Source of the DNA: Paralichthys olivaceus
Lineage: Eukaryota; Chordata; Actinopteri; Pleuronectiformes; Paralichthyidae
Assembly (NCBI RefSeq): GCF_024713975.1
Contig: NC_091113.1
Coordinates: forward strand, 228,501 to 292,500
DNA length: 64,000 nt
Reading direction: 5' to 3'
The notes beneath the pieces were generated by a model that had not been told where the DNA came from, made no database searches, and saw nothing but the letters and a program-made list of their open reading frames with translations. Positions 15,965-53,750 of this stretch are shown here, one piece after another (positions within the stretch are counted from its first letter, which is position 1; each line of letters opens with the position of its first letter). A program made the translations under genes and the position numbers.

Positions 15965-16575
15965 TGAGATCAATAACATCAACAACTCAGATCAATAACA
16001 TCAACAACTCAGATCAATAACATCAACAACTCTGAGATCAATAACATCAACAACTCAGATCAATAACATCAACAACTCAGATCAATAACATCAACAACTC
16101 TGATCAATAACATCAACAACTCTGATCAATAACATCAACAACTCTGATCAATAACATCAACAACTCTGAGATCAATAACATCAACAACTCTGATCAATAA
16201 CATCAACAACTCTGAGATCAATAACATCAACAACTCAGATCAATAACATCAACAACTCTGAGATCAATAACATCAACAACTCTGAGATCAATAACATCAA
16301 CAACTCAGATCAATAACAACAACTCAGATCAATAACATCAACAACTCAGATCAATAACATCAACAACTCTGATCAATAACATCAACAACTCAGATCAATA
16401 ACATCAACAACTCAGATCAATAACATCAACAACTCTGAGATCAATAACATCAACAACTCAGATCAATAACATCAACAACTCTGATCAATAACATCAACAA
16501 CTCTGAGATCAATAACATCAACAACTCAGATCAATAACATCAACAACTCAGATCAATAACATCAAGAACGGATCA
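15965..16575. repeat. 22-bp minisatellite in the slc16a12 3' UTR
   Basis: About 27 tandem copies of a 22-bp unit that begins GATCAATAAC and continues ATCAACAACTCA, with a 24-bp CTGAG variant and one shortened copy near 16315. Its last, partial copy contains the slc16a12 stop codon (16573-16575), so the array occupies the first 600 bp of that gene's 3' UTR. Confidence 0.95.
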
Positions 16576-19500
16576 ATAACTCAGGTGCGCCCTCGTGCGG
16601 TGGAGGCAGCAGCGACGAATCCCAGCGACGGTAGAGAGGATGAGCGCGCTCGCCAACAGGGCAGCGCCACTGAGCAGGAAGGTGGCTGTGTAACTTCCTG
16701 TGATGTCAACCAGCCAACCTGCAGACCACAGAAGAAGAGTTAAGTTGTGACATCACCACGGTCCAACTGCGTCTGTTCGAGTACACACAGACCAATCAGA
16801 AATAAGAGTGAGCATGTCGTCAGGCGGAAGAGTTACGCTGATGGCACCGACAACAAACCCAAAATAAGTCGGACTGTCAATCATGACTGACAGTAAATGT
16901 TCGAATGCTAACAACAAAAGGCTAATTTTAAATTTCAAATTATAAAATGTTTAAAAATGCTAATAACAAAACATTTGAATGCTAATATTGTTAAAATGTA
17001 AATGATAAAAGTGATGTTCATGTAGAAATGTTAGCTGCAAAGCTAAAGCTAAGAGATAAACTGCACATGGACGTTTCTTGCAGTTGGAGTTTGAGGATGA
17101 AGATGACGTGACGCACGTTAAAGAGTCGAACTCTCCACAGTTAAAGGAGACGTCAACGTTGCTGCTGCTTGAACAGAATCACTTTGTTGTGTGAACTCGA
17201 CATATTTAAGATTCTGTCCCGCTCACGTGTTGCTAACATTGACTCATCAGAGATTTCGTTCAACAGTTTGTTTACATATTATTGTGCTTTTGTTTGATTA
17301 TAATTTACAGACTATAGATATATATAAAAATCAAGCTTTCTTGTGGGATATTTCAGGCTCTTTGTGGCCCTCTAGTGGCCAGTTTCCTTCTGACTAAGAC
17401 TTATTACTGAATCTTTCTTTCTGTTTATTTGACCTCGGAATGAAATTAAGATTTTTGTTCAATTTAATGTCGAAAACTTAAAATACATAATAAACAACAG
17501 AATAATATGTAAAAGACAAAATAATTCAGTTGACCATATGACACAGACGTGGGCGGAGTCTTTGGCCTCATACTGCATCACATTGTTTCCTGCTCATGAA
17601 GTTTCTCTGGTACTTTGACTCTTGATGAGTTAAGAACAAAAGACGTTGCTGCTTGTCGACATCAATGAAACAAATCAAATGTGATTGATCTTATGAATAT
17701 GTAATGGGGGGGGGGGGCTATTTAAAAAGAAAAAACATGGAGGTGACTGTTTTGTGAAATGTCAGATGATAAACTGTTAAAATAATATTTTTAATCAAAT
17801 ATTTTGAAAACAAAGTGTGGTCATTTTGCTCACCCCCGATGGGCGGGCTGACGAGATACGGGATGGCGTGGAGGAAATAGACCACACCCAGTGCCGAGGA
17901 CAGGTATGGAGCTCCCACCACATCCGAAGTCACCACAGGGATCAGAGCAACGTAGGCTCCGTCGAAGTATCCGAAGAGAACTGCGAAGGGCACGAGGATC
18001 GGGAAGGATCGAAGCAACGGCACGAAGAGGCAGCAGAGACCCTCCATCGCCACGGAGACGATATAACAGGTGAGACGATACGGCTTCAAACACCTGAGAC
18101 AGTAAAACACCACATTTACATAACTGCAGTTTATCAATGATCCGCTCATTATCTCTTTGTCCTTTAAACTCTCTGTCCTCTGTCCTTTCTACATTAAATT
18201 TCTGCCAATAGATCTTTCACCTGAATCTTACACACTGCACCTTTAACAGAAAAGGAAGGAAAGGTAAGATTCGAAAGTTTGGACTCGAACGATAAGTTTT
18301 GTCTGTCAGTCAGCAGAGTGAGACGTAAAGAAACATGTCCGCTCGTCTCCACTTTCTCCAGAAATGAAGTTAAAATATCTCAGATTCAAACGCTGCCCTC
18401 TTGTGGTGACGTCATTTGGAGTCAGATCAGTGGGGGAGGAGCCGGCAGCTCACTGATTGATCATCAAGGACATTTTCGAAACCAGGAGACGAACTGACTC
18501 TTCAAGGTTTCAGGTCGACAGGTTTTATCTCCACGTTGAGCTGACGGGGTTTTCTGACGTCGTGTCAACAGGACAGTTGAGGAACAGAGTTCAGTTCAGG
18601 GTCGTCCTGTACGAAGGAAGTTGAATGACTATTGTCACACTCTGTTTGTTCCACTGTTCATCGTCAGGATGAAAAGTCCGAGTCAACGACGATAAAGTCA
18701 AACAAACAACAGTTTCAACAAATTCAGTCGTGATAATTCAACTAATTATGTGAATAAAAGGGAAATAATATCGTTCAGATTGTTTCAATTAAAAGTGACG
18801 AAATCATTTTCATGTTAATCATCGTTTACACCCCTGAGCTTGTCCGCTTTGATTGGTTCACAGATTGACTTCCTGTCTGGCGGAGTCGTACCTGCGGTCT
18901 GTCAGCCAGCCGAAGGTGATGTTCCCCACGATGTCAATGACTCCAAGGATCGACATGAGGAAAGCGGCGTGCTGGTGCCTGACGCCGGCATGCAGAGCAT
19001 AGGGCACCAGGTAGACGAAGGGGAGGCTGCAGCCGCTGGCTAAGAACAGGAAGGACACGGCCAGGAACAGGAAGTCGGGCAGCAGCAGGAAGCGGTACTC
19101 CTCACTTGACCAGAAGCAGGAGCTGGAGCATCTCCACCTCTCCACCTGAGGGGTGGGGTTTCTCTGCAGGAGGGGTAGCGACGGTAAAGAAGGAGAGGGC
19201 GACGCACCTGATGAAGAACATCCAACGTCAGATTCTTTGGAGAGCTTCACTGCGAGTTCGGCATCCTGCGATGACACAGGACCTGTGGTGGGAGACGGAC
19301 AGGTGACCACGTGTCAGTTTGAATAAACGTGTTCTGTCAAAATGAAGGACATGCTTATCACTGCTCCTCACCACGTGTGTCCTCCCCCGCTGAGTCCGTC
19401 TCCTCCTCCCGCAGTGTGATCGGTCGAAGAAGCGCCCCACAGACACAGAGGTTGGCGACGAAGGCGCTGAGGACGAGCAGCGCCCCCCTCCACGAGTACA

Positions 19501-20982
19501 GCTCGATCAACAGCTGCACGACCGGAGCCAAGACAAACGTCCCGATCCCGCTGCCTGACATGGCGACGCCGTAGGCCAGAGCCTTCCTCCGCTGGAAATA
19601 ACAACCCACCATGGCGATGGCCGGCGTGTAACAGAGAGCGAAACCCAGACCTGGACAACAAGGACAGTTTGAAAAGTGAGGACATTTTAGGAAAACAATA
19701 CTTTTTAAATTGAAGACATTTTTGATAATAGAGACATCCTTAACACATGGTGACACTTGAAGACATATTGACAGAGTGGAGACATGTTGACCTGTTGCAC
19801 TGCAGGGACCGATCGACCTGTGAGGCGGTTTCAATTGCAGGGACATGTTGACCTGTGTGGACACGTTGACCTGTGTGGACATGTTGACCTATGAGGACAT
19901 GTATACCTGTGAGGACGCCCATGAAGACATAGAGCAGCTCTAGGCTGCTGGTGAAGGAGCTGAGGAGGAGGCCACAGGACGAGATAAGTCCTCCCAACAT
20001 CACCGTCCCCCGGCATGACCACCGGTTCCCAACCAGACTGCCGACAGGAGCTGGACACACAGAAACACACAGCTGATGTCAGAGCGGTGCAGCGCCCCCT
20101 GCAGGTTGCTGACGGGTGTGATGGCACTGACCACCGAGCATCGTGGTGCAGTCCACCAGACTGTGGATCCACGCTGTCTCTGAGTAGTCGGCTCCGAAAT
20201 GAGCCTGAAACTCGGCGAAGAAGATGGAGATGCACCTGCAGGCAGAGTGTGATGAGTTATTGATCAGTGATCAGTTAATCTGTTGATGATCAGCTGAGCC
20301 AGTGTTGTGTAACGTCCACTGAGGTTTCTGGACTTCACAGTTCACTTCCTGTTATGTAAATGGTTTGAATGGTTAAACTGGGACCACAGTCCACCTGCGC
20401 TCACAACGATCCGCTTCATGGTAAGTGGTTGTCAGGGGTAACCGAGGCAGAGCTAGTTTCTTTTCCTCCGACATGGTTCAGAAAATGATTGGCTCGGTGG
20501 TCTGGACCCGATCCTCCATTAACAACATTTTCCCGATCACATGCTTCTGGAACATCGGACTCGAGGTTCATGAACCTTGAGAACAACGTTTTATCTGTGA
20601 AATAAAAACTAGACTCAACGAATAGGATTCAAAGTGAAATGCTTCCTGTCTGTGGCTCAGCAGCTGATCTCAGGGTTGATGGTTCCAGCGCCAAGTTCTG
20701 TTGAGCAACTTCAACCCAAAGTTCTCCTGATGTTTGCTTCTTTGTGATTCTTCACATTATCGAGTTATTTTCTGTGGTTGATGATGAAACGTCTCAGACG
20801 TCCATCGTGTCTCAAACTGCTCGTGTCTCAACCCAAACAGTCCCCCCCCCCCGTTTCCAGTCTTTATGCTATGCTAAGCTATCTGTCTCTTTATAGAACT
20901 ACAAACTGTGATGAAGAACAGAAAAATTAAGTTTAATAGAAATCAACATATAATAGTTTAAGAGAGAGAGCTTCTGTTGTGT

Positions 20983-21014
<32 letters not shown>

Positions 21015-21140
21015 CTGTGTGTGTGTGTGTTACCTGGTCACTGCTCGTGTGCAGACCGTCACCATGAAGCAGCAGCCGACGATCACCCAACCCCACCCCC
21101 CGTCCGGAGGAGACACCCCGCTGCTCCGCTGCTTCACCAT
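16573..21140 (-). CDS. slc16a12: Monocarboxylate transporter 12 (complete, 7 coding exons)
   Basis: A 12-segment major facilitator of the SLC16 family; SLC16A12 in mammals is a basigin-dependent creatine transporter. Coding exons: 21140-21034, 20235-20132, 20050-19907, 19650-19372, 19282-18892, 18093-17834, 16718-16573. They sum to 1431 nt, 476 aa. Landmarks: the SLC16 signature DGGWGWVIV at residues 13-21, [66 protein letters not shown] and [19 protein letters not shown]. These match SLC16A12 and clearly not SLC16A9. The long loop between segments 6 and 7 is Ser/Pro-rich. The start is the ATG at 21140 ([15 protein letters not shown]), which aligns with an internal Met of the human protein. 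The open frame continues upstream to about 21257 through a Gln/Asp/Leu repeat but begins there with GTG, so I treat that part as 5' UTR. Confidence 0.95.
17545..17700 (+). repeat. Dispersed repeat, 3' end, copy 1
   Basis: Shares TTTGACTCTTG, then GACGTTGCTGCTTG and GACATCAATGA, then a GAATATG-type tail with the sequences at 42640-42870 and 54515-54780. All three are in the same orientation, so they are copies of one dispersed family, apparently its 3' end. Lies in the last intron of slc16a12 and ends in a G-run. Confidence 0.7.
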
Positions 21141-21822
21141 GACTGCAGCTTCAGGCTGAACTGGACTCCTTTGGTCCTGGCTCAGATCCTGGTTCAGGTC
21201 CTGGTCTTGGTCTTGGTTCAGATCCTGGTTCAGGACCTGATTCTGGTTCAGGTCCACCCGTGAGGAGTTTGTCGAGTTGACTCGATCTGTCCTTGTCCTC
21301 CTGCAGCTCAGGTCGGGTCAGGGGTCAGTCCTCGGCTGATGGGAGGCGACTGGCCGGGTGGAGCTGAGCAGCAGAGTCAAGAAGAAGAAGATGAACAGAT
21401 GAAGGAGAAAAGAGTAAAAACAGACGAGTGGAGCTGATCTGAAAACCATCTTTCATCCTCTTTTCTTTCCGCGGAGTCAGACGAGCCGGTTCGTTGTCTC
21501 TGAGTTAGAACCGTCTCCGGTCAATAAGTCACCAGCTGACCCTTAATCATTAACCCACCTCTCTGCCTGATCCCTGGATGTGATGAGATATTAACCAAGC
21601 GCTCCCACATCCACAGGAGCGTTTGATTTCAGGCCCTCTGGTTGTCCGGTGTCTGTGTTTGTCTGTCCCCTGCTGAGACTCCATCAATATGTGCAGCTGT
21701 GACAGGAAGCGCTTCACTCAGCTGACCCCCCCACCCTGTCCCCGAGTGACAGCTGCGACAGGACGGTAATTATGTCCCACATGTGTTTATTTACGTCCTG
21801 AGAGGTGTTTACTGCCCGTGGG
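21141..21822. other. slc16a12 5' region with short GGTTCAG/GGTCCTG repeats
   Basis: 5' UTR and upstream sequence of slc16a12. From 21170 to 21255 there are imperfect copies of GGTTCAGATCCT and GGTCCTGGTCTT that read as a Gln/Asp/Leu/Asn repeat in the slc16a12 frame, without an ATG. The remainder to 21822 is unique sequence with no other gene. Confidence 0.6.
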
Positions 21823-24800
21823 ACAGATCAGTTATAGATCAGTTATTGATCAGTTATAGATCAGTTATAGATCAGTTATTGATCAGTTATTGATCAGTTA
21901 TAGATCAGTTATAGATCAGTTATTAATCAGTTATAGATCAGTTATAGATCAGTTATATATCAGTTATAGATCAGTTATAGATCAGTTATAGATCAGTTAT
22001 TAATCAGTTATAGATCAGTTATAGATCAGTTATTGATCAGTTATTAATCAGTTATTGATCAGTTATAGATCAGTTATATATCAGTTATAGATCAGTTATA
22101 GATCAGTTATAGATCAGTTATTGATCAGTTATAGATCAGTTATTAATCAGTTATTGATCAGTTATAGATCAGTTATTGATCAGTTATAAATCAGTTATAA
22201 ATCAGTTATATATCAGTTATAGATCAGTTATAGATCAGTTATAGATCAGTTATTGATCAGTTATAGATCAGTTATTAATCAGTTATTTATCAGTTATAGA
22301 TCAGTTATTGATCAGTTATTGATCAGTTATTGATCAGTTATAGATCAGTTATAGATCAGTTATAGATCAGTTATAGATCAGTTATTAATCAGTTATTTAT
22401 CAGTTATAGATCAGTTATTGATCAGTTATTGATCAGTTATTGATCAGTTATATATCAGTTATAGATCAGTTATAGATCAGTTATAGATCAGTTATAGATC
22501 AGTTATTGATCAGTTATAGATCAGTTATAGATCAGTTATAGATCAGTTATTAATCAGTTATTTATCAGTTATAGATCAGTTATTGATCAGTTATAGATCA
22601 GTTATAGATCAGTTATTGATCAGTTATTAATCAGTTATAGATCAGTTATTGATCAGTTATAGATCAGTTATTGATCAGTTATAGATCAGTTATAGATCAG
22701 TTATTGATCAGTTATAGATCAGTTATAGATCAGTTATAGATCAGTTATAGATCAGTTATTAATCAGTTATAGATCAGTTATAGATCAGTTATTGATCAGT
22801 TATAGATCAGTTATAGATCAGTTATTGATCAGTTATAGATCAGTTATTAATCAGTTATTTATAAGTTATAGATCAGTTATTGATCAGTTATAGATCAGTT
22901 ATAAATCAGTTATAGATCAGTTATAGATCAGTTATAGATCAGTTATAGATCAGTTATTGATCAGTTATAGATCAGTTATAGATCAGTTATAGATCAGTTA
23001 TTAATCAGTTATAGATCAGTTATAGATCAGTTATTGATCAGTTATAGATCAGTTATTAATCAGTTATTTATCAGTTATAGATCAGTTATTGATCAGTTAT
23101 AGATCAGTTATAGATCAGTTATTAATCAGTTATAGATCAGTTATAGATCAGTTATTGATCAGTTATAGATCAGTTATAGATCAGTTATAGATCAGTTATT
23201 AATCAGTTATAGATCAGTTATAGATCAGTTATTGATCAGTTATTGATCAGTTATTAATCAGTTATAGATCAGTTATAGATCAGTTATAGATCAGTTATTG
23301 ATCAGTTATAGATCAGTTATAGATCAGTTATAGATCAGTTATTGATCAGTTATAGATCAGTTATAGATCAGTTATTAATCAGTTATAGATCAGTTATAGA
23401 TCAGTTATAGATCAGTTATAGATCAGTTATTGATCAGTTATAGATCAGTTATAGATCAGTTATTAATCAGTTATAGATCAGTTATAGATCAGTTATTGAT
23501 CAGTTATAGATCAGTTATAGATCAGTTATTAATCAGTTATAGATCAGTTATAGATCAGTTATTGATCAGTTATTAATCAGTTATAGATCAGTTATAGATC
23601 AGTTATTAATCAGTTATATATCAGTTATAGATCAGTTAAAGATCAGTTATTGATCAGTTATTAATCAGTTATAGATCAGTTATTGATCAGTTATAGATCA
23701 GTTATAAATCAGTTATAGATCAGTTATAGATCAGTTATTGATCAGTTATATATCAGTTATAGATCAGTTATAGATCAGTTATTGATCAGTTATTAATCAG
23801 TTATAGATCAGTTATTGATCAGTTATAGATCAGTTATAAATCAGTTATTGATCAGTTATAGATCAGTTATTGATCAGTTATAGATCAGTTATTGATCAGT
23901 TATTGATCAGTTATTGATCAGTTATAGATCAGTTATAGATCAGTTATTGATCAGTTATTGATCAGTTATAGATCAGTTATTGATCAGTTATAGATCAGTT
24001 ATAGATCAGTTATAGATCAGTTATTGATCAGTTATAGATCAGTTATTGATCAGTTATAGATCAGTTATTGATCAGTTATAGATCAGTTATTGATCAGTTA
24101 TTGATCAGTTATAGATCAGTTATAGATCAGTTATAGATCAGTTATTGATCAGTTATAGATCAGTTATAGATCAGTTATTGATCAGTTATAGATCAGTTAT
24201 TGATCAGTTATTGATCAGTTATTGATCAGTTATAGATCAGTTATTGATCAGTTATTGATCAGTTATAGATCAGTTATTGATCAGTTATTGATCAGTTATA
24301 GATCAGTTATTGATCAGTTATAGATCAGTTATAGATCAGTTATTGATCAGTTATAGATCAGTTATTGATCAGTTATTGATCAGTTATAGATCAGTTATAG
24401 ATCAGTTATTGATCAGTTATAGATCAGTTATAGATCAGTTATTGATCAGTTATAGATCAGTTATTGATCAGTTATTGATCAGTTATAGATCAGTTATTGA
24501 TCAGTTATAGATCAGTTATAGATCAGTTATTAATCAGTTATTGATCAGTTATTGATCAGTTATTGATCAGTTATTGATCAGTTATTAATCAGTTATTGAT
24601 CAGTTATAGATCAGTTATTGATCAGTTATAGATCAATTATTGATCAGTTATAGATCAGTTATAGATCAGTTATAAATCAGTTATTGATCAGTTATAGATC
24701 AGTTATTGATCAGTTATTGATCAGTTATAGATCAGTTATTGATCAGTTATAGATCAGTTATTGATCAGTTATAGATCAGTTATAGATCAGTTATTGATCA

Positions 24801-27800
24801 GTTATAGATCAGTTATTGATCAGTTATAGATCAGTTATAGATCAGTTATAGATCAGTTATTGATCAGTTATTAATCAGTTATAGATCAGTTATAGATCAG
24901 TTATAAATCAGTTATAAATCAGTTATTGATCAGTTATAGATCAGTTATTGATCAGTTATTGATCAGTTATTGATCAGTTATAGATCAGTTATTGATCAGT
25001 TATTGATCAGTTATAGATCAGTTATTGATCAGTTATAGATCAGTTATAAATCAGTTATAAATCAGTTATTAATCAGTTATAGATCAGTTATTGATCAGTT
25101 ATAGATCAGTTATTAATCAGTTACAGATCAGTTATTGATCAGTTACAGATCAGTTATTGATCAGTTATAGATCAGTTATAAATCAGTTATAAATCAGTTA
25201 TTGATCAGTTATAGATCAGTTATTGATCAGTTATTGATCAGTTATAGATCAGTTATTGATCAGTTATAGATCAGTTATTGATCAGTTATTGATCAGTTAT
25301 AGATCAGTTATTGATCAGTTATAGATCAGTTATTAATCAGTTATTGATCAGTTATTAATCAGTTATTGATCAGTTATAGATCAGTTATAGATCAGTTATT
25401 GATCAGTTATAGATCAGTTATTGATCAGTTATTGATCAGTTATAGATCAGTTATAGATCAGTTATTGATCAGTTATAGATCAGTTATTGATCAGTTATTG
25501 ATCAGTTATAGATCAGTTATTAATCAGTTATATATCAGTTATTAATCAGTTATTGATCAGTTATAGATCAGTTATTGATCAGTTATTGATCAGTTATTAA
25601 TCAGTTATAGATCAGTTATAGATCAGTTATTAATCAGTTATAGATCAGTTATAGATCAGTTATTGATCAGTTATTAATCAGTTATAGATCAGTTATTGAT
25701 CAGTTATAGATCAGTTATAGATCAGTTATTAATCAGTTATAGATCAGTTATAGATCAGTTATTGATCAGTTATTAATCAGTTATAGATCAGTTATTGATC
25801 AGTTATATATCAGTTATAGATCAGTTATTAATCAGTTATAGATCAGTTATAGATCAGTTATTGATCAGTTATAAATCAGTTATAGATCAGTTATAGATCA
25901 GTTATTGATCAGTTATAGATCAGTTATAGATCAGTTATAAATCAGTTATAGATCAGTTATAGATCAGTTATAAATCAGTTATAGATCAGTTATAGATCAG
26001 TTATTGATCAGTTATAGATCAGTTATAGATCAGTTATTAATCAGTTATTGATCAGTTATAGATCAGTTATTGATCAGTTATAGATCAGTTATTGATCAGT
26101 TATAGATCAGTTATAGATCAGTTATAAATCAGTTATAAATCAGTTATTGATCAGTTATAGATCAGTTATTGATCAGTTATAGATCAGTTATTGATCAGTT
26201 ATAGATCAGTTATAGATCAGTTATAAATCAGTTATAAATCAGTTATTGATCAGTTATAGATCAGTTATTAATCAGTTATAGATCAGTTATTGATCAGTTA
26301 TAGATCAGTTATTGATCAGTTATAGATCAGTTATTAATCAGTTATTGATCAGTTATTAATCAGTTATTGATCAGTTATAGATCAGTTATAGATCAGTTAT
26401 TGATCAGTTATAGATCAGTTATTGATCAGTTATAGATCAGTTATAGATCAGTTATTGATCAGTTATTGATCAGTTATAGATCAGTTATTGATCAGTTATA
26501 GATCAGTTATAGATCAGTTATATATCAGTTATTAATCAGTTATAGATCAGTTATTAATCAGTTATAGATCAGTTATTGATCAGTTATAGATCAGTTATTG
26601 ATCAGTTATAGATCAGTTATAGATCAGTTATTGATCAGTTATAGATCAGTTATAGATCAGTTATAAATCAGTTATAAATCAGTTATAGATCAGTTATAGA
26701 TCAGTTATAAATCAGTTATAAATCAGTTATTGGTCAGTTATTGATCAGTTATTGATCAGTTATAGATCAGTTATAGATCAGTTATTGATCAGTTATAGAT
26801 CAGTTATAGATCAGTTATTGATCAGTTATAGATCAGTTATAGATCAGTTATTGATCAGTTATATATCAGTCATAAATCAGTTATAAATCAGTTATTGATC
26901 GGTTATTAATCAGTTATAGATCAGTTATTGATCAGTTATATATCAGTTATAAATCAGTTATAAATCAGTTATTGATCGGTTATTAATCAGTTATTGATCA
27001 GTTATTGATCAGTTATTAATCAGTTATAGATCAGTTATTGATCAGTTATAGATCAGTTATTGATCAGTTATAGATCAGTTATAGATCAGTTATTGATCAG
27101 TTATAGATCAGTTATAGATCAGTTATAGATCAGTTATAAATCAGTTATAAATCAGTTATTGATCAGTTATAGATCAGTTATTGATCAGTTATTGATCAGT
27201 TATTGATCAGTTATAGATCAGTTATTGATCAGTTATAGATCAGTTATTAATCAGTTATTGATCAGTTATTAATCAGTTATTGATCAGTTATAGATCAGTT
27301 ATAGATCAGTTATTGATCAGTTATAGATCAGTTATTGATCAGTTATTGATCAGTTATAGATCAGTTATAGATCAGTTATTGATCAGTTATTAATCAGTTA
27401 TATATCAGTTATTAATCAGTTATTGATCAGTTATTGATCAGTTATTGATCAGTTATTAATCAGTTATTGATCAGTTATAGATCAGTTATAGATCAGTTAT
27501 TGATCAGTTATAGATCAGTTATTGATCAGTTATAGATCAGTTATAGATCAGTTATTGATCAGTTATAGATCAGTTATTAATCAGTTATAGATCAGTTATA
27601 TATCAGTTATTAATCAGTTATAGATCAGTTATTAATCAGTTATAGATCAGTTATTGATCAGTTATAGATCAGTTATTGATCAGTTATAGATCAGTTATTG
27701 ATCAGTTATAGATCAGTTATATATCAGTTATTAATCAGTTATAGATCAGTTATTAATCAGTTATAGATCAGTTATTAATCAGTTATAGATCAGTTATTAA

Positions 27801-30735
27801 TCAGTTATAGATCAGTTATTGATCAGTTATAGATCAGTTATAGATCAGTTATAAATCAGTTATAAATCAGTTATTGGTCAGTTATTGATCAGTTATTGAT
27901 CAGTTATTGATCAGTTATAGATCAGTTATAGATCAGTTATTGATCAGTTATAGATCAGTTATAGATCAGTTATTGATCAGTTATAGATCAGTTATAGATC
28001 AGTTATTGATCAGTTATATATCAGTCATAAATCAGTTATAAATCAGTTATTGATCGGTTATTAATCAGTTATAGATCAGTTATTGATCAGTTATATATCA
28101 GTTATAAATCAGTTATTGATCGGTTATTAATCAGTTATTGATCAGTTATTGATCAGTTATTGATCAGTTATTGATCAGTTATTGATCTGTTATAGATCAG
28201 TTATTGATCAGTTATTGATCAGTTATATATCAGTTATAGATCAGTTATTAATCAGTTATATATCAGTTATAGATCAGTTATTGATCAGTTATATATCAGT
28301 TATTGATCAGTTATAGATCAGTTATTGATCAGTTATAGATCAGTTATTGATCAGTTATAGATCAGTTATAAATCAGTTATAAATCAGTTGTAGATCAGTT
28401 ATTGATCAGTTATAAATCAGTTATAAATCAGTTATTAATCAGTTATAAATCAGTTATTGATCAGTTATTGATCAGTTCTAGATCAGTTATAGATCAGTTA
28501 TTAATCAGTTATAGATCAGTTATATATCAGTTATAGATCAGTTATTGATCAGTTATAGATCAGTTATTGATCAGTTATAGATCAGTTATATATCAGTTAT
28601 ATATCAGTTATAGATCAGTTATTGATCAGTTATTAATCAGTTATAGATCAGTTATAGATCAGTTATTAATCAGTTATTGATCAGTTATAGATCAGTTATA
28701 GATCAGTTATAGATCAGTTATTGATCAGTTATAGATCAATTATTGATCAGTTATAGATCAGTTATTGATCAGTTATAGATCAATTATTGATCAGTTATAG
28801 ATCAGTTATAGATCAGTTATTGATCAGTTATAGATCAGTTATATATCAGTTATAGATCAGTTATTGATCAGTTATAGATCAGTTATTGATCAGTTATTGA
28901 TCAGTTATAGATCAGTTATAGATCAGTTATAGATCAGTTATTGATCAGTTATAGATCAGTTATTGATCAGTTATTGATCAGTTATAGATCAGTTATTGAT
29001 CAGTTATAGATCAGTTATAGATCAGTTATATATCAGTTATTGATCAGTTATAGATCAGTTATTGATCAGTTATTGATCAGTTATAGATCAGTTATAGATC
29101 AGTTATTGATCAGTTATTGATCAGTTATAGATCAGTTATTGATCAGTTATAGATCAGTTATTAATCAGTTATAGATCAGTTATAGATCAGTTATATATCA
29201 GTTATTGATCAGTTATAGATCAGTTATTGATCAGTTATTGATCAGTTATAGATCAGTTATTGATCAGTTATAGATCAGTTATAGATCAGTTATATATCAG
29301 TTATTGATCAGTTATAGATCAGTTATTGATCAGTTATAGATCAGTTATTGATCAGTTATTGATCAGTTATAGATCAGTTATAGATCAGTTATTGATCAGT
29401 TATTGATCAGTTACTGATCAGTTATAGATCAGTTATTGATCAGTTATAGATCAGTTATTAATCAGTTATTGATCAGTTATAGATCAGTTATAGATCAGTT
29501 ATAGATCAGTTATTGATCAGTTATAGATCAGTTATTGATCAGTTATTGATCAGTTATAAATCAGTTATAAATCAGTTATAAATCAGTTATATATCAGTTA
29601 TTGATCAGTTATAGATCAGTTATTGATCAGTTATAGATCAGTTATATATCAGTTATTAATCAGTTATAGATCAGTTATATATCAGTTATAGATCAGTTAT
29701 TGATCAGTTATTGATCAGTTATTGATCAGTTATAGATCAGTTATGAATCAGTTATAGATCAGTTATTGATCAGTTATAGATCAGTTATATATCAGTTATT
29801 AATCAGTTATAGATCAGTTATAGATCAGTTATTAATCAGTTATAGATCAGTTATAGATCAGTTATAGATCAGTTATTGATCAGTTATATATCAGTTATTG
29901 ATCAGTTATAGATCAGTTATAAATCAGTTATAGATCAGTTATAGATCAGTTATTAATCAGTTATAGATCAGTTATAGATCAGTTATAGATCAGTTATTGA
30001 TCAGTTATATATCAGTTATTGATCAGTTATAGATCAGTTATAAATCAGTTATAGATCAGTTATAAATCAGTTATAGATCAGTTATTGATCAGTTATTGAT
30101 CAGTTATTGATCAGTTATAGATCAGTTATGAATCAGTTATTGATCAGTTATAGATCAGTTATAAATCAGTTATAAATCAGTTATAGATCAGTTATAAATC
30201 AGTTATAGATCAGTTATTGATCAGTTATTGATCAGTTATTGATCAGTTATATATCAGTTATAGATCAGTTATTGATCAGTTATAGATCAGTTATATATCA
30301 GTTATAAATCAGTTATAGATCAGTTATAGATCAGTTATTAATCAGTTATAGATCAGTTATAGATCAGTTATAGATCAGTTATTGATCAGTTATATATCAG
30401 TTATTGATCAGTTATAGATCAGTTATAAATCAGTTATAGATCAGTTATAAATCAGTTATAAATCAGTTATAGATCAGTTATAGATCAGTTATTGATCAGT
30501 TATATATCAGTTATTGATCAGTTATTGATCAGTTATAGATCAGTTATTGATCAGTTATTGATCAGTTATATATCAGTTATTGATCAGTTATAGATCAGTT
30601 ATAGAACAGTTATTAATCAGTTATTGATCAGTTATAAATCAGTTATAGATCAGTTATATATCAGTTATTGATCAGTTATTGATCAGTTATAAATCAGTTA
30701 TAAATCAGTTATAGATCAGTTATAAATCAGTTCAG
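21823..30735. repeat. 11-bp satellite array, 809 monomers, 8.9 kb
   Basis: An uninterrupted array of the monomer AT(A/T)(G/A/T)ATCAGTT between slc16a12 and asah2. Full monomers run from 21834 to 30732: 8899 bp, exactly 809 x 11. Variation is almost confined to monomer positions 3-4 (AG, TG, TA, AA, AT, TT). Rare changes elsewhere include GATCGG, CAGTCAT and TTGGTC. Marker variants show kilobase-scale higher-order duplication. The frames that open within it, for example 24310-24510, are repeat artefacts. No gene lies within. Confidence 0.99.
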
Positions 30736-31152
30736 TAATAGATCAATAATATATAAATACATAGTATTGATTGATCTCTTCCTCCTCTGTTTGTTTGTGC
30801 GACTGAGGATTATTTTGTCTCAGTTTCATGTTTTTATGAACACAGATAATATTTATGAAATATTAAAATCTTCTGTATCTCAAACCTCCAAATTCACATT
30901 TTGTTGAAAAACTATCCAAACTTTATAATTTCTTTCCATTCACACAGATCATCTCTGTGAGCAAGTGTGAATATTACCCATAATCCTCTGCTTCCTTCAC
31001 CAAATTCTGTTTCAAATTTAAATTTAAAAGCTTCCTTCTGATTATTGGAAATAAACTTTAATAACTTCTCCATCTTTTTAAGATATCTACAGCTTCAGTC
31101 TTCATCACCACCACCACCGATGAAGATGATGATGGTGATGATGATGGTGATG

Positions 31153-31184
<32 letters not shown>

Positions 31185-31731
31185 GATAATGGTGATGATG
31201 ATGATGTGATGGTGATGAAGATGAATTGGTCTTGGTTTTTAATCATGTGTTTGATCACAATCCATAATCTATATTATATAAGTGTGTGTGTGTGACGTCC
31301 AATTGCAACCTTTGGAGTATGTGTGTGTTTATCAGTCAGATAAGAGCTGAACTGTGAAACACACACCACACACAGACACACACAGCGGCAGCAGGTGAGA
31401 ACGACCTCGTCTTCATCAAGGTTCTGATTCGTCTCAGGCTCGTTTCCTGAGTTGTCGTCATGAAATTGACCTCAGATACTTTAACTTCCTGTTTCTGCTC
31501 AAACTGATTCGATTTTATATGATTCACATGACCAATGGTTGTGTGGCATGGTGTAGATGTTGTGTGGACGTTGTGTAGATGTTGTGTGGACGTTGTATTG
31601 AGGTTGTGTAGATGTTGTGTAGTGGTTGTTTAGATGTTGTGTAGTGGTTGAATATATGTATATGTAGAAATATCAGCTGAGGATCCTGGGTAATAAAGTT
31701 CTGATGACGTGTTACCCTCAGTGTCTGAAAG
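30736..31731. other. asah2 upstream region
   Basis: AT-rich unique sequence followed by a (GAT)n/(GATGGT)n tract at 31118-31212 and a short (TG)n near 31280. It presumably contains the asah2 promoter and 5' UTR. I cannot point to a core promoter. Repeated GTTGTGTAGATGTTGTGTGG motifs occur at 31550-31650. Confidence 0.5.

Positions 31732-37973
<6,242 letters not shown>

Positions 37974-39908: not shown

Positions 39909-53750
<13,842 letters not shown>

Follow-up and report, generated by a model that had tools for sequence, protein, structure and literature searches.

An 8.9-kb stretch near the start of contig C21 of Paralichthys olivaceus is, with high probability, a large and fairly young AT-rich subtelomeric minisatellite of the VNTR type, which has grown by block duplication and most likely has no dedicated function; its youth and the variability of its length are properties that we infer. 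The unit of this array, NNATCAGTTAT, is exactly 11 bp long and is repeated 809 consecutive times without a single inserted or deleted base. The window, i.e. the whole 64-kb stretch of DNA that was analyzed, corresponds to C21:228501-292500 (C21, 19.85 Mb; assembly, 588 Mb in 25 contigs), and the array is located approximately 250 kb from the start of the contig. Coordinates without a contig name refer to the window.

Extent, register and gene setting of the array

The repeat and its degenerate right border comprise the following features:

21825..30732, plus strand: 11-bp minisatellite array with 809 full units and 9 bp of another; consensus (A/T)(G/A/T)ATCAGTTAT, no indels
30733..30750, plus strand: two decayed flanking units (CAGTAAT and AGATCAATAAT), shifted by 5 bp against the array's phase

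TRF called a single array at 21825-30732 with 0% indels, and a wraparound alignment of the array to the 22-bp TRF consensus gave 8367 matches and 541 mismatches with 0 insertions and 0 deletions. The lag-11 match within the array was 0.911, and phase tracking in 33-bp windows with an 11-bp step showed a constant phase from 21811 to 30721. The claim of the original prediction that the array shows no net slip thus holds for its interior in all three analyses, and the starts of the 14 variant monomers that it named all differ by multiples of 11 when checked by hand. The array had been placed from 21834 onwards; it is real, but its true left edge lies 9 bp further out, at 21825. Phase breaks were absent inside the array, while one was found at its very right edge, where the partial unit at 30724-30732 is followed by the decayed units with their 5-bp offset (15 of 18 bases matching, counted by eye; phase 5 score 0.64). 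Since the interior contains no phase break, the length changes that survive are of whole units, in agreement with the proposed growth and shrinkage by whole monomers.

When the array was cut every 11 bp from 21825, the 809 units fell into 19 types. The five most frequent carry AG, TG, TA, AA or AT before ATCAGTTAT and together account for 783 units. The GC content is approximately 25% (A+T approximately 75%), and no runs of four or more identical bases occur between 21825 and 30732. A protein-coding role was rejected: the commonest unit contains the stop TAG and its reverse complement contains TAA and TGA, and the 11-bp step carries stop codons through all frames, so that the array is not coding.

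Two genes border the array:

17721..21317, minus strand: exons of a monocarboxylate-transporter-like (SLC16/MFS) gene, with MFS_1 and MCT matches
31729..37970, plus strand: exons of a neutral ceramidase gene, with Ceramidase_alk and Ceramidse_alk_C matches

MFS_1 matches three open frames of the SLC16-like gene, one of them above Pfam's cut-off. The best solved-structure matches of 19361-19888 are MCT1 and MCT2, and 21033-21317 shows a weak match to the N-terminal part of MCT2 (E 0.005). The array appears to lie upstream of the presumed first coding exon of this gene. On the other side, Ceramidase_alk was found at 32506-32727 and 32731-32916 and Ceramidse_alk_C at 36748-37074 and 37713-37970, the segment 32731-32916 matching the neutral ceramidase entry 4wgk, which we take to be the human enzyme, with an E value of 3.2e-18. 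The first ceramidase exon is probably located at 31729-31893, in a frame without a family match, and the array appears to be upstream of this gene as well. Most of the interval between these two divergent genes thus appears to be taken up by the array. A kinesin and BBS1 are found to the left of the SLC16-like gene, and a cGMP-dependent kinase on the minus strand further to the right of the ceramidase. The array may have a regulatory role. Its position as an 8.9-kb spacer between the two genes is probably incidental. The window also contains a TC/TG microsatellite with a 100-bp higher-order period at 34693-35134, as well as a 22-bp array, AGATCAATAACATCAACAACTC, at 15967-16580; GTTATTGATC in the reverse complement of the latter is also present in the main array, which would be compatible with kinship.

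Relatives in the assembly and variation among units

The whole assembly was searched for a motif in which three cores are separated by two free bases each, allowing up to two mismatches. This gave 815 forward and 79 reverse matches, compared with 0 for the reversed control. Local counts cover every match (main array, 808; C21:173 kb, 6; C7:48 kb, 1; C3:63 kb, 79). For all four places, on three contigs, the distance to a contig start is less than 260 kb. Assuming 24 chromosomes, stretches of this length at both ends of each would amount to 2.1% of the assembly. Weaker BLAST relatives were found towards the ends of C14 (approximately 120 kb from the end), C24 (approximately 77 kb) and C6 (approximately 627 kb), and internally at two places on C8 and one on C17. 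At C14:24.726 Mb, a related array of 2.6 kb carries irregularly spaced TGATCAGTTA cores with many length variants and has lost its register. A further indel-free 11-bp array (CAATCTATTAT / CAATCTATAAT; 103 full units) was identified at C21:56161-57303; its core differs from that of the main array and its kinship is uncertain.

Spread as a transposon or as a segmental duplication with shared flanks is ruled against by the absence of flank similarity: no similarity at E 1e-3 was detected among 15 pieces of approximately 0.4-2 kb with the low-complexity filter on. This sample consisted of both window flanks and nine related places, four of which were taken whole; C24 was represented by its left flank, and BLAST issued a parameter warning for the right piece of C6.

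Variation in the main array is concentrated at the first two positions of the unit. At position 1, 43% of the units differ from the commonest base, and at position 2, 21%, while each of the positions 3-11 is 99.4-100% one base. Only 20 of the 809 x 9 core cells depart from it, and these rare variants affect eight of the nine core positions. By hand count, 15 substitution classes are visible, four at positions 1-2 and 11 at positions 3-11, each number being a lower bound on mutation events. The core does mutate, but its variants have not become common, unlike a few two-base variants, which have spread. In the C3 array, too, the most variable position is one of the first two (position 2), and core variants reach 14%; in the array at C21:173 kb, variation is found at positions 3 (25%) and 8 (34%).

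The free positions 1-2 against a nearly fixed ATCAGTTAT, together with the variable position 2 of C3, could hint at constraint, but the core variation on C3 and at C21:173 kb speaks against this. In one alternative, the core is held by selection for protein binding, with the array as a decoy, or as an element that spaces or insulates two divergent promoters. TAACTG in the reverse complement of ATCAGTTAT fits what we take to be the vertebrate MYB site, YAAC(G/T)G, and CAGTTA is present 796 times in the array; the near-uniform core and an array that takes up most of the gap between apparently divergent genes would also suit this explanation. However, the number of classes per position is not very different inside the core (11 over nine) and outside it (four over two), and nearly every core position has its rare variants. 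In the array at C21:173 kb, moreover, 26 of the 87 full units have a G at position 8, which breaks the motif, and the array at C21:56 kb has another core. A literature search on the idea of MYB binding returned nothing on the subject, as judged by title. Selection on a binding core is thus very unlikely.

Register, duplicated blocks and the neighbor pattern

According to the original prediction, simple slippage should leave partial units. This expectation is not supported. Slippage or unequal exchange between misaligned tandem copies gains or loses whole units by default; misaligned copies pair in register, and length changes consequently come as whole units. If the ratio of indels to substitutions is assumed to be 1:5, 1:8 or 1:12, the probability that the array, with its 15 substitution classes, contains no indel is 0.065, 0.17 or 0.30, respectively. 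In the sister 11-bp arrays, hand counts gave ratios of indels to classes of 3:21 (C3), 2:8 (C21:173 kb) and 0:13 (C21:56 kb). Pooled, these are 5 indels versus 42 classes (1:8.4), hence a probability of approximately 0.18 for an indel-free main array. Two of the five indels are at T-runs, and the other three fall among the four units decoded first in the array concerned. With so few visible mutations (15 classes; P approximately 0.17-0.18), an indel-free array is not very surprising.

For comparison, we analyzed 264 kb of the C21 end (C21:28501-292500), in which TRF found 26 arrays that exceed 300 bp and have a unit length of 7 bp or more. Nine of these have 0% indels by TRF's rounded figure. 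By alignment, six of the 23 C21 arrays with a period of up to 100 bp are indel-free, the main array included. Five arrays located elsewhere were aligned as well, and two of them lack indels. On C21, the remaining five indel-free arrays measure just 0.48-1.17 kb, and none equals the 8.9 kb of the main array; four with unrelated units lie at C21:125436, 134285, 138399 and 151742. The perfect register is ordinary, left by repeat growth in whole copies.

The absence of base runs in the unit is a partial reason for the register at best. In the 5.2-kb A-rich array at 44292-49537 of the window (TRF unit approximately 28 bp, with shorter internal periods), 141 of 162 indel openings are in runs of four or more. 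When this array is set aside, only 17 of 269 openings in the remaining C21 arrays are in base runs, and only four of 118 in the related C14 array (hand sums), which counters the absence of runs as a general cause.

The order of the unit types along the array contains duplicated blocks, the clearest pair being the following (from a unit-level alignment, with coordinates derived by hand from unit numbers):

26687..27016, plus strand: duplicated block, first copy, units 443-472
27831..28160, plus strand: duplicated block, second copy, units 547-576

These two copies align with a score of 74.6 and 29 of 31 columns identical. At least six more block alignments in the unit-type string score 28.2-32.0, while the maximum in six first-order Markov simulations was 25.6. 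Among the matches listed, recurring blocks are approximately 20-57 units long and 9-175 units apart. The longest exact match is 20 units at lag 105, compared with 10-11 in three shuffles.

Could the assembly have produced this pattern, with a true in-step array given a wrong length or order by collapse or expansion? The 200 kb to the left of the window contain 17,500 N, and C21 begins with N and lacks TTAGGG/CCCTAA in its first 3 kb. The 64-kb window itself is free of N bases, however, and an irregular order of variants whose longest exact duplicate is 20 units is unlike a stitched artefact. We therefore regard an assembly product as very improbable.

Three of the 11-bp arrays have fewer identical neighbors than their shuffles: the main array (0.25 vs 0.317 +/- 0.013), the one on C3 (0.09 vs 0.17 +/- 0.032) and that at C21:173 kb (0.15 vs 0.334 +/- 0.039). 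At C21:56 kb they are not clearly rarer (0.17 vs 0.189 +/- 0.035). Incomplete or indel-bearing units were dropped before this test (1 of 810, 5 of 106, 3 of 90 and 1 of 104, respectively). An exception in the main array is the AA unit type, whose AA-AA pairs are in excess (19 vs 3.5). Since one-unit stutter would give the opposite of a deficit, growth by blocks of at least two units, rather than single-unit stutter, fits the neighbor pattern; a bias toward losing one of two identical adjacent units would be an alternative. As to whether the deficit is general, |z| was below 2 in 34 of 43 rows (hand count; the rows overlap, with several per array). Five of the remaining rows were at -2.0 to -5.4 and four at +2.2 to +2.9, the two lowest being forced sub-periods of longer units. 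The array could also be imagined as a selected regulatory spacer, in which a fixed 9-bp core that binds a protein is repeated some 800 times in phase between divergent promoters, and unlike neighbors suppress the loss of single units and stabilize the length. We consider this highly improbable.

The favored explanation, a minisatellite grown by block duplication, would proceed as follows. A short seed would have been duplicated first, and misaligned copies would then have exchanged or been re-copied, by unequal sister exchange, synthesis-dependent strand annealing or out-of-register replication. Such events would add or remove whole units only. Few stray indels would be expected from so few mutations; they may never have arisen, or turnover may have removed them everywhere but at the edge. 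A unit free of base runs may help to keep the register.

Predicted shape and class of the repeat

The original prediction also held that the 11-bp unit could give the array a regular curvature. In a wedge model, the array is predicted to bend by 9.9 degrees per turn over 110 bp, about threefold more than the flanks (3.0-3.2; base-shuffled sequence, 4.2). Tandem permuted 11-mers of matched composition give nearly as much, however (mean 8.7, 90th percentile 14.7). The consensus unit reaches 12.9, a value attained by 16% of the permuted 11-mers, and the A6 benchmark is far higher at 26.6. Over 330 bp, the array scores 1.48 with the model twist (flanks, 1.56 and 1.95) and 2.77 with a fixed twist of 34.29 degrees (flanks, 1.58 and 1.86), so that it comes down to the level of the flanks with the former but not quite with the latter. 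The predicted bend is thus for the most part what any 11-bp period would give. Folding gave a similar picture. All six single strands examined (both strands of three windows of the array) fold better than their dinucleotide shuffles (z -3.4 to -4.9), while 51% of 400 permuted-unit arrays fold as well as the array does on average, and 49 flank windows, which are richer in GC, average -9.9 vs -9.2 kcal/mol for the array. A pure TG-unit array folds better (-19.7 kcal/mol, a value without ranking against permuted arrays). In these models, curvature and hairpins are mostly generic rather than special properties of the array, and a period kept for DNA shape, as a curved, nucleosome-phasing or hairpin array, is the least probable of the explanations considered.

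The array consists of head-to-tail units within the range of minisatellites or VNTRs (approximately 10-60 bp, arrays of up to kilobases, a single locus or a few), and its variants have been spread by block copying. The original term 'satellite' is a stretch, since satellite DNA forms very long arrays over many chromosomes and in the assembled DNA the three-unit motif occurs at four places, spread over three contigs, with no array larger than 8.9 kb. A precedent for a constant unit length is the human Y minisatellite MSY1. In extracts from PMC2599865, MSY1 is described as 75% A+T, with units that differ by base substitutions, other unit lengths never observed, and length mutants that gain or lose 1-3 whole units. 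The array resembles it in being AT-rich, with substitution variants and units of one length. MSY1 differs in its 25-bp unit, its 77-unit progenitor allele (as studied there), its variants arranged in blocks and its constitutively haploid Y locus, whereas the array counts 809 units of 11 bp, among which the variants are interspersed. A unit predicted to form a hairpin also belongs to the MSY1 type; strands of the array do better in this respect than dinucleotide shuffles, yet no better than permuted units or flanks.

Expanded AT-rich minisatellites of several kilobases are also found at FRA16B and FRA10B, with units of 33 or 35 bp and approximately 42 bp, respectively, FRA10B being listed as present above 5 kb (PMC9714581, in extract). 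The array is comparable in its AT-rich short unit and kilobase-scale expansion (8.9 kb, approximately 25% GC), a likeness in sequence alone, but its unit length is different and FRA10B is listed with 91% A+T compared with approximately 75% here. Rare fragile sites of this type are recognized by gaps or breaks that distamycin A or BrdU brings out on metaphase chromosomes. Like vertebrate subtelomeric VNTRs, the array is near a chromosome end and in an array-rich stretch: the arrays counted above (over 300 bp, unit at least 7 bp) occupy 34.8 of the 264 kb (13%), the chromosome end being sampled alone. Human VNTRs are enriched near chromosome ends, an enrichment that the abstract of PMC7608644 reports for VNTRs with more than 60% GC and units longer than 15 bp; the array, AT-rich and with a short unit, is unlike these. 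A literature search found no title naming its repeat.

The array is thus a new example of a known minisatellite class. Taken alone it matters little, but it is a clear and large case of minisatellites keeping register. Its variant code would make a good marker for studies of turnover, and the pattern of unlike neighbors in three of the four 11-bp arrays is a candidate stability effect.
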